Below are positions 12,580 through 29,096 of a stretch of 64,000 nucleotides of DNA, piece after piece. The stretch spans positions 72,282-136,281 of the forward strand of contig JAHECO010000002.1 of the NCBI GenBank assembly GCA_024641705.1. The letters are read 5' to 3'. Numbering within the stretch: the stretch's first letter is position 1; every line of letters starts with the position of its first letter. The translations under genes and the position numbers were made by a program. The stretch comes from Candidatus Kryptoniota bacterium (GTDB lineage: Bacteria > Bacteroidota > Ignavibacteria > Kryptoniales > JAKASW01). The notes below the pieces were generated by a model. It had not been told where the DNA came from, did no database searches, and saw only the letters and a program-made list of their open reading frames with translations.

Positions 12580-13800
12580 TTAAAGAAGCTTCAGAATCTG
12601 ATCGAGAATTCTTCCGGCAACTTCATACTTAGGCAGGAGAGGTAGTTCCGTCTTCTCGTCCTCTTTTCCCAAAATTATTGTAACTCTATTTGTCTCGGTC
12701 CCGAAACCCGCCCCCTCTTCTCTGGGGTTGTTCACGACTATCGCGTCAAGTGACTTCGAAAGAAGTTTCTCCCTGGCATTCCGGATCGCGTCGTCCGTTT
12801 CGAGCGCAAACCCGACAAAAACCCGCTTGCCTTTCTTTGACGCCATCGATTTCAGGACATCGACATTCTCGACCAGCTCGAGCTTCGAGCTCCCGTCGGC
12901 GAACTCTGATTTCTTGATCTTACGGTCCGGCGGGTTGGCGACTTTGTAATCCGCAATTGCGGCGGTCATGACGAGCGCATCACACCATTCGATATTCTTC
13001 CCGACGGCGCTCAGCATTTCATCGGCAGTCCTCACGTTTTCCCTGGCGACATTTCTTGGGGTCTCCAGCGATACGGGGCCCGTGATAAGCCTGACCTCCG
13101 CCCCGCGATTTGCCGCGGCAGCCGCCACTGCGAATCCCATCCTGCCTGAACTCCGGTTCGAGATGAACCTCACGGCGTCGATCGGTTCCTGCGTCGGGCC
13201 TGCGGTGATGAGTATTTTCTTCCCCTCCAAATCCCTGTGGTGACCCTCGAAGAAGGCCTCCATCCTTCCGACAATCCTGTCGACCTCCGCAAGCCTACCG
13301 GGACCGGAAAGTCCGCTCGCCAGCTCTCCCTCTTCGGGCTCGATAACGATTACTCCGCGCTCCTTTAATTTCGATATGTTCGACGTTGTTGCCGGATGGA
13401 CATACATGTCGGTGTCCATAGCGGGTGCAATGACCAGCGGTGCGCGAAGGGCCAGCGCGATCGAAGTGAGGAAGTTGTCCGCAATCCCCTGTACAAGCTT
13501 TGCTATCGTCGTGGCGGTGACGGGAGCTATCAGCATCGCGTCGGCCCAGATTCCAAGCTCGATATGCCAGGTCCCGACCGAAGTGGGACGGTTCGGGTCG
13601 GGAAACATGTCCATATAAACCTGATTGTGGGATAGGGAGGAAAATGTAAGCGGTGCAATGAAGTTCGAGGCGGATGGAGTCATCACGACTCTTACATCGG
13701 CACCCTTCCTCTGAAGTTCGCGCAGGAGGAAGGCGCTCTTATAGGCTGCGATGCTTCCGCATACGCCGAGAATTATTTTCTTGCCGGAAATGGATGACAT
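12580..13800 (-). CDS. coaBC: Bifunctional phosphopantothenoylcysteine decarboxylase / phosphopantothenate-cysteine ligase
   Basis: A 406-residue two-domain enzyme of coenzyme A synthesis. The N-terminal flavin decarboxylase (CoaC) shows the first strand IILGVCGSIAAYKSA, the active-site histidine H79 in GTWHIEL, and APAMDTDMY (125-133). The C-terminal ligase (CoaB) shows ITAGPTQEPID, FISNRSSGRMG and KIKKSE. The flap motif that is ACGD in E. coli reads ASGLSG here, with Ser162 in place of the catalytic cysteine; I recall this variant from Bacteroidetes proteins. It is the last gene of the yicC-gmk-rpoZ-coaBC run. Confidence 0.95.
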   Translation of the reverse strand: MSSISGKKIILGVCGSIAAYKSAFLLRELQRKGADVRVVMTPSASNFIAPLTFSSLSHNQVYMDMFPDPNRPTSVGTWHIELGIWADAMLIAPVTATTIAKLVQGIADNFLTSIALALRAPLVIAPAMDTDMYVHPATTSNISKLKERGVIVIEPEEGELASGLSGPGRLAEVDRIVGRMEAFFEGHHRDLEGKKILITAGPTQEPIDAVRFISNRSSGRMGFAVAAAAANRGAEVRLITGPVSLETPRNVARENVRTADEMLSAVGKNIEWCDALVMTAAIADYKVANPPDRKIKKSEFADGSSKLELVENVDVLKSMASKKGKRVFVGFALETDDAIRNAREKLLSKSLDAIVVNNPREEGAGFGTETNRVTIILGKEDEKTELPLLPKYEVAGRILDQILKLL

Positions 13801-13863: not shown

Positions 13864-14160
13864 TTAGAGGGAGGATTTATAGCGGTAGATGATCTTGCCG
13901 TCCAGTAACTCGTTGAGCGCCTGTTCAGTAGGCTTCTGCAGCTTGTCGAATTCCTTGCTCAATTCAACTTGTTCCGGGTTCACTTTCTCGTCTTCTTCAA
14001 GGGATTCCTGGATCTGCTTGATCCCTTCAAGGCGCTGGCTGAATTCGATTTTTCTCTCGTCGCCGATCTGTCTCGCCCTGCGAGAGGCGACGACAATTGC
14101 TTCGTACGCGTTCCCGGTCACTATATCAAGTTGTCGTATGTCAATAGGTTTCAGTCCCAC
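13864..14160 (-). CDS. rpoZ: RNA polymerase omega subunit
   Basis: A 98-residue protein. MGLKPIDIRQLD is followed by GNAYEAIVVASRRARQI, the conserved omega/RPB6 helix, and by a C-terminal IIYRYKSSL. It is longer in the middle than E. coli omega, with an acidic coiled insertion (residues 47-75) typical of FCB-group omegas. It overlaps the end of gmk by 20 bases, the same gmk-rpoZ pairing seen widely in bacteria. It promotes assembly of beta-prime into RNA polymerase; rpoA, rpoB and rpoC are also in this window. Confidence 0.88.
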   Translation of the reverse strand: MGLKPIDIRQLDIVTGNAYEAIVVASRRARQIGDERKIEFSQRLEGIKQIQESLEEDEKVNPEQVELSKEFDKLQKPTEQALNELLDGKIIYRYKSSL

Positions 14161-14731
14161 TCGAAAACTCCTTACGTTTCTTGTTTATGATGTCAAAAAC
14201 CTCACCAACTGCGCGTTTTAGCTCATCATTGATAATAATATAGTCATATTCCCGACCTATCTCAAGCTCCATTTCGGCCCTTGCCATCCGCCGTTCGACC
14301 TGCTCCCTGGTCTCGCTCCCTCTTCCTTCCAGTCTCTGTTTAAGCGTCTGGATCGAAGGCGGTTTCACGAAGATCAGAACGGCTTCGGGGAACTTTGCCT
14401 TAATCGATAATCCTCCTTTGACATCCACATCGAAGATGATGTCCTGCCCTTTCGAAAGCGCTTTCTCGATCTCGCTCCGCAGAGTCCCGTAGTAATTGGA
14501 ATATATGTTCTCGAATTCGACAAGCTTGCCGTCGGCAATCTTCTTTTCGAACTCCCCTTTCGTAAGGAAGTAATAGTCTTTCCCGTCCACTTCACCCGCC
14601 CGCTTTTCGCGGGTCGTCGCTGAGACCGAGAACCCGAAAGTCGGGTACTGTTTCAGGACTTCTTTCACGATCGTCGTTTTCCCCCCGCCGCTCGGAGCCG
14701 ATATCACGAGCAGCATGCCGCGGTGCTTCAT
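14141..14731 (-). CDS. gmk: Guanylate kinase
   Basis: A 196-residue kinase converting GMP to GDP with ATP. The P-loop is APSGGGKTT (12-20). SATTREKRAGEVDGKDY is the GMP-binding segment, ENIYSNYYGT follows, and IFVKPPSI and RMARAEMELE belong to the core and lid. Full length for the family. The ATG at 14731 overlaps the yicC stop (ATGA), and its 3' end overlaps rpoZ, so the three genes are translationally coupled. Confidence 0.95.
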   Translation of the reverse strand: MKHRGMLLVISAPSGGGKTTIVKEVLKQYPTFGFSVSATTREKRAGEVDGKDYYFLTKGEFEKKIADGKLVEFENIYSNYYGTLRSEIEKALSKGQDIIFDVDVKGGLSIKAKFPEAVLIFVKPPSIQTLKQRLEGRGSETREQVERRMARAEMELEIGREYDYIIINDELKRAVGEVFDIINKKRKEFSSGTETY

Positions 14732-15603
14732 TCCAGGTTCTGTACCTGTTCTCTTATCTTTTCGAGTTCTTCCTTTATCTCCACAACGAGATGAGACATA
14801 TCCGCGTCGAAGGCTTTGGATCCCATCGTGTTTGCTTCCCTGTTCATTTCCTGGAGAAGGAAGTTCAGCCTTCTTCCATTTGATTCTTCCCCATCCAGAA
14901 GTTCCGTGAAAAACCGGTTATGAGTTCTGAACCTCACCACTTCTTCCGTGATATCCAGTTTGTCGGCAAGGAGGACAATTTCCATCTCGATGCGTGCGGG
15001 ATCGACTTCTTTCCCGTCAAGCACGCCGGCGACCTTTTGTCTAAGCCTCGACTTTTCCTCCTCTGTCCGCGATCGTGACAGTCCTTCGAGCTGCTCCAAA
15101 TCGGATTCCAGCTTCGCGATTCTTTTGAGAAGGTCAGCTCTCAGAGACCCCCCTTCGGTTGACCTTGCTTCATGAAGTTGAGCCAGTGCCAGGTCGAGGG
15201 CGGACTTTACCGACTCCCACTCCTCGCCGTCGGCGGTTTCGGGTGCCGCCGCCTTGAATAGGTCCCTGAAGGAAAGTACATGCTCCAACTTAAGAGGCGT
15301 CGATATGCCTGCGGACTTCTTGAGCGACTTAAGGAGTCTGACAACCTGTTTTACCGATTCCGCATCTACGAACACCTCGCCATTGTGCTGACCGGTACTC
15401 GTAGAAACCATTATCGACAGTTTACCCCTTCCAACCCTCTGCCGGACAGTCTCGCGTATTTCCATCTCTCGCGTGGAGAGCGCCTGCGGAAGCTTAACGT
15501 TTATCTCGAGATACCGGCTGTTCACGCTCCTTATCTCGACCGAAGCCGTACAATCGCCCACTCTGGCTTCCCCTTTGCCGAAACCGGTCATACTTTGAAT
15601 CAT
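14728..15603 (-). CDS. yicC: YicC/YloC family endoribonuclease
   Basis: A 291-residue protein. The N-terminal YicC domain begins MIQSMTGFGKGE and continues SVEIRSVNSRYLEI. The C-terminal DUF1732 domain contains EIVLLADKLDITEEVVR, NFLLQEMNREANTMGSKA and a final coiled segment EEIKEELEKIREQVQN, all diagnostic. Members of this family act on RNA; the physiological substrate in this organism is unknown. The gene precedes gmk by a 4-base overlap, a very common arrangement. A probable promoter is at 15644-15670. Confidence 0.93.
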   Translation of the reverse strand: MIQSMTGFGKGEARVGDCTASVEIRSVNSRYLEINVKLPQALSTREMEIRETVRQRVGRGKLSIMVSTSTGQHNGEVFVDAESVKQVVRLLKSLKKSAGISTPLKLEHVLSFRDLFKAAAPETADGEEWESVKSALDLALAQLHEARSTEGGSLRADLLKRIAKLESDLEQLEGLSRSRTEEEKSRLRQKVAGVLDGKEVDPARIEMEIVLLADKLDITEEVVRFRTHNRFFTELLDGEESNGRRLNFLLQEMNREANTMGSKAFDADMSHLVVEIKEELEKIREQVQNLE

Positions 15604-15643
15604 GGCTCGAGATTTCCTGCGGGATGGTTATTGAAATTTGGAA

Positions 15644-15670
15644 ATTATAATCCGCCTCGGCGATCTTCAA
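15644..15670 (-). promoter_or_regulatory. Possible promoter of yicC-gmk-rpoZ-coaBC
   Basis: A perfect TATAAT on the minus strand (15644-15649) has TTGAAG (15665-15670) 15 bases upstream. The spacing is short, so it may be weak or may need an activator. It lies about 41 bases before the yicC start codon. Confidence 0.45.
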
Positions 15671-15717
15671 TACTGATCACCGGCGGATCGACAACTACCA
15701 GTGTCACGGGGAGCGTC

Positions 15718-15918
15718 TTATCGCGACCTGCCCCTTGACTTCACCGGCATTTTGAACCGTTTGTCGACCATTCCTTTCTTGCCGTGGCTGCCAAATCTGT
15801 CGACCCACTTCTTCACGGTCTTCACATTGACACCGGTTCTCTCTGCTGTTCTTCTCAAGCTCTTCAATTTCTTGTACGTCTCGACAATCTTCATTCTTTT
15901 CTGCACATCACTCATCAT
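15718..15918 (-). CDS. Small helix-turn-helix protein
   Basis: A 66-residue basic protein. SLRRTAERTGVNVKTVKKWV (residues 20-39) is a clear helix-turn-helix of the homeodomain-like type, followed by a glycine-rich turn and a basic tail (GMVDKRFKMPVKSRGRSR) resembling the end of the N-terminal DNA-binding module of IS481/IS630-type transposases. No transposase catalytic domain follows within the next 114 bases. It is therefore a stand-alone DNA-binding protein or a domesticated transposase fragment. Expression signals are excellent: GAGGAG 8 bases before the ATG, and a consensus promoter containing a possible operator. It lies upstream of yicC in the same direction and might regulate itself or that operon. 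Confidence 0.72.
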   Translation of the reverse strand: MMSDVQKRMKIVETYKKLKSLRRTAERTGVNVKTVKKWVDRFGSHGKKGMVDKRFKMPVKSRGRSR

Positions 15919-15938
15919 GGTACAATCTCCTCTCTTAC

Positions 15939-15973
15939 ATGACTATTATAAGTCATCGGATTGTCTTTGTCAA
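15939..15973 (-). promoter_or_regulatory. Consensus sigma-70 promoter with -10 box inside an inverted repeat
   Basis: On the minus strand TTGACA (15968-15973), a 17-base spacer and TATAAT (15945-15950) form an exact consensus promoter for the helix-turn-helix gene. The -10 hexamer is flanked on both sides by ATGACT and AGTCAT, making an 18-bp inverted repeat (15939-15956). A repressor dimer bound there would block RNA polymerase, so this is a good autoregulatory operator candidate. The predicted start of transcription is about 20 bases before the start codon. Confidence 0.75.
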
Positions 15974-16082
15974 TCACCGATTGCCGAACCCGGCAACACG
16001 CGGACCGAAAGACCGGCGAACAACCGCCGGTTATTACATCCATGGTTGTGCAACGCATTCCCCAGTCGTGAGCCCGATGTCG

Positions 16083-17402
16083 CTAGTAGGGCATGTGAGG
16101 AGGAGACTCACGCCACGTCAATACACCGAACGTACCGGTGTAGGGGAAGGATGGCGGAGAATTCGATGCAAGCCGACTGTCGTATTGATAGTTCTTGTTG
16201 TATCCGGTGGCCGTCTGATTCGTGGAGCTGTTGAAAGTCCCGACCGGTCCGCGGGTCGCGTTCGCAATCGAACCCAGGAGGTGGATATAGGCGGAGGTCC
16301 CAAGATTTGTGGAGCTCCAACCGGAGTACGAAAAGGAACCGTTTTGGGCATAAATCGCGGCATCTATGTAGACGTTCTGCTGGCTGGCCGTCAAAGTGAC
16401 GTTGTTCTGTGCCACAAGTCCAAGCATGTCCGTACTGCTCGGATTCGTCGTGGGGTCGTTCTGATAGGTGACGTTGTTGTCTATCAATATGTTCCCGCTG
16501 TTGGTGGAACCGATTGCTCCCTGCTGCGCGACGACTGTCAGCTGGCCTCCGAGGACTCCCTGCACGTGCGCGTCACCGTTCGATACAGCGACGACCCCAT
16601 TTGGAGCGAAGCTGCTTAGCGGCAGGACAGAATCTCCCGAGGCCGGCACCCTGGTAGTGCCGCCGTGCCCGCCCGGTACATACGTAACAGTGTGAAACGA
16701 GACATCTTCCTCGTTAGTCGTGGTGTTGTAGGCAAAGGAAAGATAGACATCGTATGTGCTGTTAGTGTTGGTATTTGTATTGGTGAAGAGCTTGCTGGCC
16801 GTGGATGCGCTGGGGGTAACGGAACTCATGCCGTAACTGACTCCCGATTGGAAGCCGGCGAGAAATTTCGGCGTGGCTGCCAGCGATTTTGAGATGCCGA
16901 GCCTCGATGAAACCTGACCCTTAAATACCGGCGTCCCTGACACATACAGGGAATCATTCGTCGCCATCGGCCCGCTTACGGTATCTCCTGTCTTCCAGTA
17001 GATCCCGTTCTCTTTGTTTGAAAAGAATTCCCACTGGGAGTACTGCCTTCTTGTGAGAAGGACCTGGACGGTATCGGTATATGAACCGGTAAAATCGGAA
17101 TACGACGATGCCGACTGAAGCAACAGCTCAGAAGTGTGCCCTGCCACCGGGGTTGTGGTCACAGTGTAGTTTCCACCGGCGAACTGTCCGCTCAGTGAGA
17201 GTGCGGTAGCACTTACATCGGTAAAGAGAGAATCGCATCCGATATTTGCGCCGGCGCTGGCAATGTTGTAAACATTCGACTGCCCGTAGTACTGGACGTA
17301 GTTTTCTACGGCGCTGGTTGCCTCGCGGTTCCAGTACTTTCCCGCTATCCCGAAGACCAGGGAAAAACCGATGATAACAATGAGAGTTGCGCGTCCTACC
17401 AT
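16083..17402 (-). CDS. PilX/DUF4900-like pilus-associated protein
   Basis: A 439-residue protein with a single N-terminal hydrophobic helix (ATLIVIIGFSLVFGIAG) and a long extracytoplasmic domain rich in Ser, Thr, Asn and Gly. The C-terminal pattern RGPVGTF, GYNKNYQYDSRL, PPSFP and TWRE is typical of the PilX/DUF4900 proteins found with minor pilins. There is no GFxxxE prepilin cleavage site. Residues 205-215 hold a short (NT)n run. It is the last gene of a three-gene pilin-like operon (18552 to 16083) and probably forms part of a pseudopilus tip or an adhesin. Confidence 0.7.
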   Translation of the reverse strand: MVGRATLIVIIGFSLVFGIAGKYWNREATSAVENYVQYYGQSNVYNIASAGANIGCDSLFTDVSATALSLSGQFAGGNYTVTTTPVAGHTSELLLQSASSYSDFTGSYTDTVQVLLTRRQYSQWEFFSNKENGIYWKTGDTVSGPMATNDSLYVSGTPVFKGQVSSRLGISKSLAATPKFLAGFQSGVSYGMSSVTPSASTASKLFTNTNTNTNSTYDVYLSFAYNTTTNEEDVSFHTVTYVPGGHGGTTRVPASGDSVLPLSSFAPNGVVAVSNGDAHVQGVLGGQLTVVAQQGAIGSTNSGNILIDNNVTYQNDPTTNPSSTDMLGLVAQNNVTLTASQQNVYIDAAIYAQNGSFSYSGWSSTNLGTSAYIHLLGSIANATRGPVGTFNSSTNQTATGYNKNYQYDSRLASNSPPSFPYTGTFGVLTWRESPPHMPY

Positions 17403-17412
17403 AACCGACCCC

Positions 17413-18027
17413 TTATCTGCTATTCAAGTTCTTGGAGACGAGTCTTGTCTGTCTCCAGGTTGAAAAGACTTGTTTGTTCGAGGTGTCCGCGTAGACCGCC
17501 GTGGGCTGGACAGTCACGTTAACCTGTATCACCTCGACGCCTGCCGTGTCCCCGAGGAACGGCGTCATAACAGAATCCCCCAATTCATTGTAATACGACA
17601 GGTGAAATTGAGTGACTCCCAGGTTTGAGCTGTCGACCTCAGATACGCCGTTCAACCCGGTAACCCTGCGCACAAGCATCCTGACATTCCGGTTCGAACA
17701 ACCGGCTACCGCCCAGGGCTCAAGGTACCACGACACCGTGTCTATTTTCCCGTCGTTATTTACATCGGCCTGAAATGTTATGCTGTTTGTGTCGCCGGAG
17801 ATGATGAAGGAGTTGGCGGCGATTGTATCGTTGTTGCAGTACCCTATCAGCCTGAAATCCCATTCCAGGTTCTCGACGACTGAGGTTATGTTCTGCTGAA
17901 CGGAAAGCGATGATTGCGCCTGGAAAGTGTTGCTGGTGGCCCTCTCGTTCATCGCGAGCGCCGATAACAGGAGGAGGCTGCCGATGACCATCGACCCGAT
18001 GATGTCTAACATAGTTGTGCTGCCCAT
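17413..18027 (-). CDS. PilW-like pilin-related protein
   Basis: A 204-residue protein with one N-terminal membrane helix (MLDIIGSMVIGSLLLLSALA) and a globular, probably beta-rich, exported domain. The pattern LSVQQNITSVVENLEWDFRLIGY followed by ITFQADVNNDGKIDTVSWYL resembles PilW/type II secretion J-like minor pilins. The usual G/E prepilin signal is missing. It lies 6 bases after the upstream pilin-like gene and 10 bases before the DUF4900-like gene. The assignment rests on fold-like features and context rather than a strong signature. Confidence 0.6.
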   Translation of the reverse strand: MGSTTMLDIIGSMVIGSLLLLSALAMNERATSNTFQAQSSLSVQQNITSVVENLEWDFRLIGYCNNDTIAANSFIISGDTNSITFQADVNNDGKIDTVSWYLEPWAVAGCSNRNVRMLVRRVTGLNGVSEVDSSNLGVTQFHLSYYNELGDSVMTPFLGDTAGVEVIQVNVTVQPTAVYADTSNKQVFSTWRQTRLVSKNLNSR

Positions 18028-18033
18028 GACTCC

Positions 18034-18552
18034 CTACCTCCCCGCTCTTCCGAAAAACCAGTAGCTATAGACAGAGTGCATGACGACCGTATCCGGAAGG
18101 TCCTTGTTCCATACCCAGACATCCAGCCTTTTCGTCCAGCTCGGGCTACTCGAGTTCTGACCCAAGTCCGCGTAGTTGGCTACATAATACACTCTGGTCT
18201 TCAGGTAGTATTTCCCGGTACTAAGCGTAACGCTATCCAGCCTCCCCTGACCGTTGAGACCGTTGTAGTCGTCAAAATCGTCGAGGTCGTTTGGATCGTT
18301 GTTTTCCTGGCCGAGCGAGTTTGCCGGCGTAAGCTGTGCCAGAGTTGTGTCGACGCCTCTTACAGTACTGTCGTCAAACGCGGTCGAGTCGGCCTCCTGT
18401 ATAACCGAGGTGGCCAGTGAAACGGCATCGAGCCCGCAGTTGGTGCTGAGCAGGGTTTCGCCGGTCGAGTTTATGTCCCGATTGGTCGTCAGTATAACTG
18501 CCCCCAGCAGCATCATAGCCGCGATGGTCAGAAGAGTTTGCCCAGTACCCAT
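18034..18552 (-). CDS. PilV-like pilin-related protein
   Basis: A 172-residue protein starting MGTGQTLLTIAAMMLLGAVIL, a single N-terminal hydrophobic helix, then an exported domain with an acidic Asn/Asp-rich stretch (residues 83-98). SLATSVIQEADSTAFDD resembles the helix after the membrane segment in PilV-like minor pilins. Like its neighbours it lacks a recognisable prepilin peptidase site. First gene of the three-gene run, with an AAGGAG ribosome binding site. A large hairpin lies 124-179 bases upstream. No pilus motor or secretin gene occurs in the window, so partners must be elsewhere. Confidence 0.6.
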   Translation of the reverse strand: MGTGQTLLTIAAMMLLGAVILTTNRDINSTGETLLSTNCGLDAVSLATSVIQEADSTAFDDSTVRGVDTTLAQLTPANSLGQENNDPNDLDDFDDYNGLNGQGRLDSVTLSTGKYYLKTRVYYVANYADLGQNSSSPSWTKRLDVWVWNKDLPDTVVMHSVYSYWFFGRAGR

Positions 18553-18794: not shown

Positions 18795-18882
18795 TGGTGC
18801 CGAAGGCGGGACTCGAACCCGCACGCCCTTTCGGGCCCTGCCCCCTCAAGACAGTGTGTCTACCAAGTTCCACCACTTCGGC
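18795..18882 (-). tRNA. tRNA-Leu, anticodon GAG
   Basis: Reads on the minus strand with a 7-bp acceptor stem (GCCGAAG with CTTCGGC), an anticodon stem CTGTC/GGCAG around the loop TTGAGGG, a long variable arm (class II) and T loop TTCGAGT. The 3' CCA is encoded (18795-18797). Anticodon GAG decodes CUC and CUU. It lies 45 bases downstream of pnp and may be transcribed with it. Confidence 0.95.
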
Positions 18883-18927
18883 TGGCATAAAAATTAAAAA
18901 ACGAAGAGAGAAAAAACAACACCGCGT

Positions 18928-29012: not shown

Positions 29013-29096
29013 GGAGGGTTGGCAGAATTGGCTAATGCACCGGTCTTGAAAACCGGCGCCCCTCGGGGCTTGGGGGTTCGAGTCCCTCACCCTCCG
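29013..29096 (+). tRNA. tRNA-Ser, anticodon TGA
   Basis: Acceptor stem GGAGGGT with ACCCTCC, anticodon stem CCGGT/ACCGG around the loop CTTGAAA (anticodon TGA), a long class II variable arm with the stem CCCC/GGGG, and T loop TTCGAGT. The discriminator is G, typical of tRNA-Ser. CCA is not encoded, unlike in the tRNA-Leu of this window. It reads UCA and, by wobble, other UCN codons. Confidence 0.95.

Follow-up and report, generated by a model that had tools for sequence, protein, structure and literature searches.

Transposases of the IS481 family (NCBIfam NF033577; Pfam PF13011 and PF13518, HTH_28) carry an N-terminal helix-turn-helix (HTH), and the small protein described here aligns both with this HTH and with the stretch that follows it. 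BldC of Streptomyces, a 68-residue regulator (PMC5859096), is likewise a small solo HTH protein without an effector domain. With regard to promoters, PMC6847099 gives the Bacteroidetes consensus as TTTG / TANNTTTG, which differs from TTGACA / TATAAT, so that a conserved promoter of the sigma-70 type in Bacteroidetes MAGs is worth noting. Our literature searches found no paper on the HTH gene itself.

The gene lies on the minus strand of the window, by which we mean the whole 64,000-nucleotide stretch of DNA that was analysed, as an open reading frame of 66 codons (15718-15918). Its promoter, on the same strand, comprises a -35 box, TTGACA (15968-15973), a 17-base spacer and a -10 box, TATAAT (15945-15950), and matches the consensus at all 12 positions. 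Between TATAAT and the ATG at 15918 are only 26 bases, which contain the Shine-Dalgarno sequence AGGAG (minus strand, 15927-15931), making for a very short leader; the orthologues have AGGAG too. A perfect dyad, ATGACT-N6-AGTCAT (ATGACTTATAATAGTCAT, 15939-15956), is centred on the -10 box. An initial annotation had read these features, from 15973 to 15718 on the minus strand, directly from the DNA, and all of them are present. The left arm of the dyad overlaps a second element, TGAnT (minus strand, 15951-15955), a candidate binding site directly upstream of the -10 box that is conserved across orthologues. Within 14600-17400 the TTGACA-17-TATAAT promoter is the sole promoter-like match. The 4.62-Mb genome holds three exact 12-of-12 sites with 17-base spacing and 40 places within one mismatch of the consensus promoter, compared with 4 forward and 4 reverse for a reversed control pattern.

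In Pfam searches the 66-residue protein scored 37.5 bits against HTH_28 (cut-off 25) and 31.1 against HTH_23 (cut-off 24.6), and only marginally exceeded the cut-off for LZ_Tnp_IS481 (22.4 versus 22.2). Its best NCBIfam match is to an IS481 transposase, with residues 7-56 aligned to profile positions 1-51 of 284 at 33.2 bits. This score is far below the curated full-length value of 224; the IS630 score likewise falls short of its own value (23 versus 100), and the DDE catalytic domain is absent. An AlphaFold2 model (mean pLDDT 82.9) has three main helices (4-18, 21-28 and 32-45) and a poorly determined basic tail, and the three-helix HTH fold, together with the Pfam score, places the protein in HTH_28. 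Structural matches to the model were HTH domains, those of TnsB and IstA among others, none with E below 0.1. The proposal that this is a transposase-type solo HTH is thus borne out by the HTH_28 score and by the NCBIfam alignment over the first 51 IS481 positions. The predicted model has no evident dimerization part. The protein is strongly basic (22 Lys and Arg versus 5 Asp and Glu; pI 11.56), its orthologues are 60-66 residues long, one lacking the C-terminal six, and the recognition-helix region, NVKTVKKW, is invariant in all 12.

To assess its conservation, we investigated the distribution of the gene at three taxonomic levels. It is present in single copy in 12 of the 13 genomes of the genus; the remaining genome (84% complete) lacks both the gene and a yicC match. 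In every one of the 12 genomes holding the locus, the gene sits upstream of yicC, gmk, rpoZ and coaBC, with coaBC cut short by the end of the contig in one of them. Mean pN/pS was 0.125 for the HTH gene, compared with 0.106 for rpoZ, 0.227 for yicC and 0.338 for a neighbouring pilin-like gene (the last from the 10 of 12 genomes that carry it), with synonymous differences saturated (pS about 0.83). The HTH gene is therefore under purifying selection and about as constrained as rpoZ. An IS481-like HTH without a catalytic domain is what a decaying insertion-sequence remnant would leave behind. However, the gene has been kept in place across saturated synonymous divergence at low pN/pS, and the usual hallmarks of a transposase are missing: there is one copy in the genome, and no convincing terminal inverted repeats flank it, with only weak ones in 15550-16250. 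The initial annotation had named a recent, unconserved remnant as the outcome that would overturn it and had pointed to orthologues beside yicC in relatives as a check; the stable position next to yicC settles both, and conservation of the gene refutes the remnant reading, which we regard as scarcely credible.

No orthologue was found beyond the genus in our class and phylum genome samples. Among the 391 genomes of the class sample, matches outside the genus occurred in 3 of the other 378 (E 1e-3), all partial: one (L073) looks like a fragment of an IS481-like transposase; the second (L015) we judge, by its sequence alone, to be a piece of an IS3-type transposase; and the third (L072) has no open reading frame of at least 60 residues on the matched strand. 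In the phylum sample of 395 genomes, partial matches were found outside the genus in four (E 1e-4). The five sister-family genomes in which the sequence upstream of yicC was read (L124, L125, L128, L130 and L137) share a different gene there, taken for prfB from its sequence. Searches of viral contigs and phages found no relatives of the protein, and plasmid records gave two partial matches (residues 22-53 at 62% identity and residues 23-53 at 58%), the second to a Dietzia plasmid gene annotated as an IS481 family transposase.

To probe the promoter, we aligned the 12 orthologous HTH promoters by their -35 boxes. All 12 have TTGACA unchanged, the spacing is fixed at 17 bases and the -10 box conforms throughout to TAnnAT, some relatives having TAATAT or TATTAT. 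Just before the -10 box, TGAnT is nearly invariant (T, G and the final T in 12 of 12, A in 11 of 12). Among fourfold-degenerate columns of yicC, the HTH gene and rpoZ, each with 12 rows, none of 59 reached 11 of 12, so selection acts on the conserved bases of the promoter; the pilin-like gene, with 20 such columns in 10 rows, had none conserved either. At other near-consensus promoters of the genome, TGA was found at the equivalent place in 0 of 26 (of 39 other matches, 29 had a locus, and 3 of these were lost to contig ends). A motif combining the promoter with TGAnTTA had 56 matches over the 13 genomes, whereas the control pattern gave 12. The HTH promoters themselves account for 12 of the 56, and we ascribe the remaining excess to ordinary promoters. 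The tail TGASTTAWTAT had 59 matches versus 53 for the control over the same 13 genomes, 5 of them at HTH promoters. Lacking a genome-wide excess, TGAnT, if it is an operator, is a local one, and the whole-genome search found no regulon sharing either the promoter-plus-TGAnTTA motif or the dyad. One recurring match (G000, G010 and G012), traced to its gene in nine genomes, was rejected as a shared operator because TTGA is kept in just 4 of the 9. At loci L146-L154, a promoter-like TTGACTT...TTGAATTAAAATTG precedes an open reading frame of roughly 830-880 residues and is kept in close congeners but not in distant ones.

According to the initial annotation, the perfect dyad is a symmetric operator on which the protein acts as an autorepressor, presumably as a dimer. 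The dyad is exact and rare, its centre is the -10 box and its left arm takes in the conserved TGAnT. It is unique in the window at up to two mismatches, where shuffled sequences average 1.87 occurrences, and the chance of six complementary flanking bases at a given centre is about 1 in 4,096. Rare as it is for a given centre, the dyad is no repeated genomic motif, with one exact occurrence and five at up to one mismatch compared with ten for the control. Nor is it conserved: the arms are complementary at 6 of 6 positions in this genome but at only 1-3 of 6 in the 11 relatives, all of which lack the downstream arm although NVKTVKKW is identical in them. The further copies near promoters that the initial annotation had proposed to look for were found neither elsewhere in the genome nor, even allowing three mismatches, at the relatives' HTH promoters. 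Together with a predicted model lacking a dimerization element, these observations make a dimer on the dyad very doubtful. From the alignment, the symmetric second arm is most likely a lineage-specific addition or chance and not part of the core site.

We favour, as our best guess, autoregulation through the conserved promoter element, a tentative reading that we would put a little short of an even chance. Counting against it are the lack of an evident dimerization part in the three-helix model and, between the HTH gene and yicC, a hairpin in the window and a gap of variable length. The main rival, possible though unlikely, is an abundant, loosely specific DNA-binding protein of nucleoid type that has no operator of its own, with the promoter bases read by RNA polymerase alone. 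A strong, constitutive promoter with TTGACA invariant in 12 genomes, a strong ribosome binding site whose AGGAG is conserved, the pronounced basicity of the protein and the lack of a repeated site in the genome would all fit such a protein, as would the conservation of spacer bases at other promoters of the genus. The promoter of tRNA-Leu bears directly on this last point: in it, 7 of the 17 spacer columns are conserved in at least 8 of 9 genomes, comparable to the 6 of 17 conserved in at least 11 of 12 in the HTH promoter (9 of 10 tRNA-Leu loci were usable, L039 having no such promoter upstream). Conserved spacer bases thus need not mean a regulator and may instead be RNA polymerase contacts, which weakens the operator inference for TGAnT, conserved as it is where the dyad is not. 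Against the nucleoid-type protein stands its invariant recognition helix, which in HTH proteins usually denotes sequence-specific binding. Moreover, TGAnT is missing from all 26 of the scored near-consensus promoters, and the second orthologous promoter keeps TTGA in fewer than half of its genomes.

The tRNA-Leu(GAG) promoter appears to be of a different type from its neighbour. It reads TTGTTT-17-TAATTTTT (minus strand, 18883-18919), is kept in 9 of 10 genomes and resembles the Bacteroidetes TTG / TAnnTTTG type, in a TTG / TAnnTT form, unlike the nearby sigma-70-type HTH promoter. The tRNA-Leu gene downstream of it (18795-18882) was called by ARAGORN; Rfam at the gathering threshold gives only a tRNA-Ser at 29013.

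The genomic context on the other side of the HTH gene suggests a further possibility, that the protein regulates genes elsewhere in trans, such as the upstream pilin-like genes, without acting on its own promoter. Three pilin-like genes precede the HTH gene in 10 of the 12 genomes. Yet the other two, in which no match to them was found, still keep the HTH gene beside yicC, and no repeated site that could serve such a regulator was found, so we consider this quite unlikely. In the window, three minus-strand genes occupy 16083-18552, between pnp and the HTH gene. Their N termini look prepilin-like by eye; the first is a weak, below-cut-off match to DUF4900, and one was measured as fast-evolving.

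Downstream on the minus strand lie yicC (14728-15603), gmk (14141-14731), rpoZ, encoding the omega subunit (13864-14160), and coaBC (12580-13800). The names first given to these genes hold, with YicC, RpoZ and CoaBC identified by Pfam and gmk by reading its sequence, and all four are syntenic. Across genomes, the HTH gene is separated from yicC by 103-367 bp. In the window this gap contains a hairpin (minus strand, 15650-15688; -20.8 kcal/mol) followed by the A/T tail TATAATTT, possibly a weak terminator, which is unconserved. Neither a conserved promoter nor, by intergenic folding, a conserved hairpin with a T-run was found in this gap among the 12 genomes, which makes shared transcription with yicC possible, and the HTH promoter may feed yicC-gmk-rpoZ-coaBC by read-through.

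Collectively, gene conservation, synteny, purifying selection and the predicted fold reveal that a transposase-type HTH has been exapted and fixed as a gene in one genus. In the mechanism that we favour, this HTH, of IS481/IS630 type, would be a free-standing, vertically inherited regulator of 60-66 residues, expressed from a sigma-70-type promoter of its own with a very short leader. Promoter conservation suggests that the protein most likely binds TGAnT, just ahead of the -10 box, and perhaps TTGA of the -35 box as well, and that, bound there, it would limit its own promoter. The same promoter may supply yicC-gmk-rpoZ-coaBC. A more speculative and rather unlikely extension is that the HTH was captured ahead of these genes in the ancestor of the genus and that its self-limited, sigma-70-consensus transcription sets how much guanylate kinase and RNA polymerase omega subunit is made. 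If true, this would be a control knob specific to one genus, built from a mobile element and acting on core genes for nucleotides and transcription. The conserved promoter bases offer a cheap, direct test of whether a minimal HTH of this size, be it monomer or oligomer, is able to control a promoter.

For such a mode of action, BldC is a model of how a small solo HTH could work on repeats. BldC is MerR-like, whereas our protein is not, an assignment to MerR/BldC having been rejected (PF13411 MerR_1, 13 bits; cut-off 21.6), and no repeat array was seen here. The DNA-binding domains of TnsB/IstA/Mos1-type transposases (PDB 8rdu, 7svw, 8b4h and 4u7b) and Cgl2762 (2jn6) are among the best fold matches, all helix-turn-helix, with similarity confined to the HTH and no E below 0.1. 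Unlike IS481 transposases, which align with its HTH and the adjoining stretch, the protein has no DDE domain and is encoded by a single-copy, vertically inherited gene at a fixed locus with its own promoter. It is a clear example of a DNA-binding module of transposase type that has become fixed as a host gene, with a narrow origin in one genus and a fixed core-gene neighbourhood.
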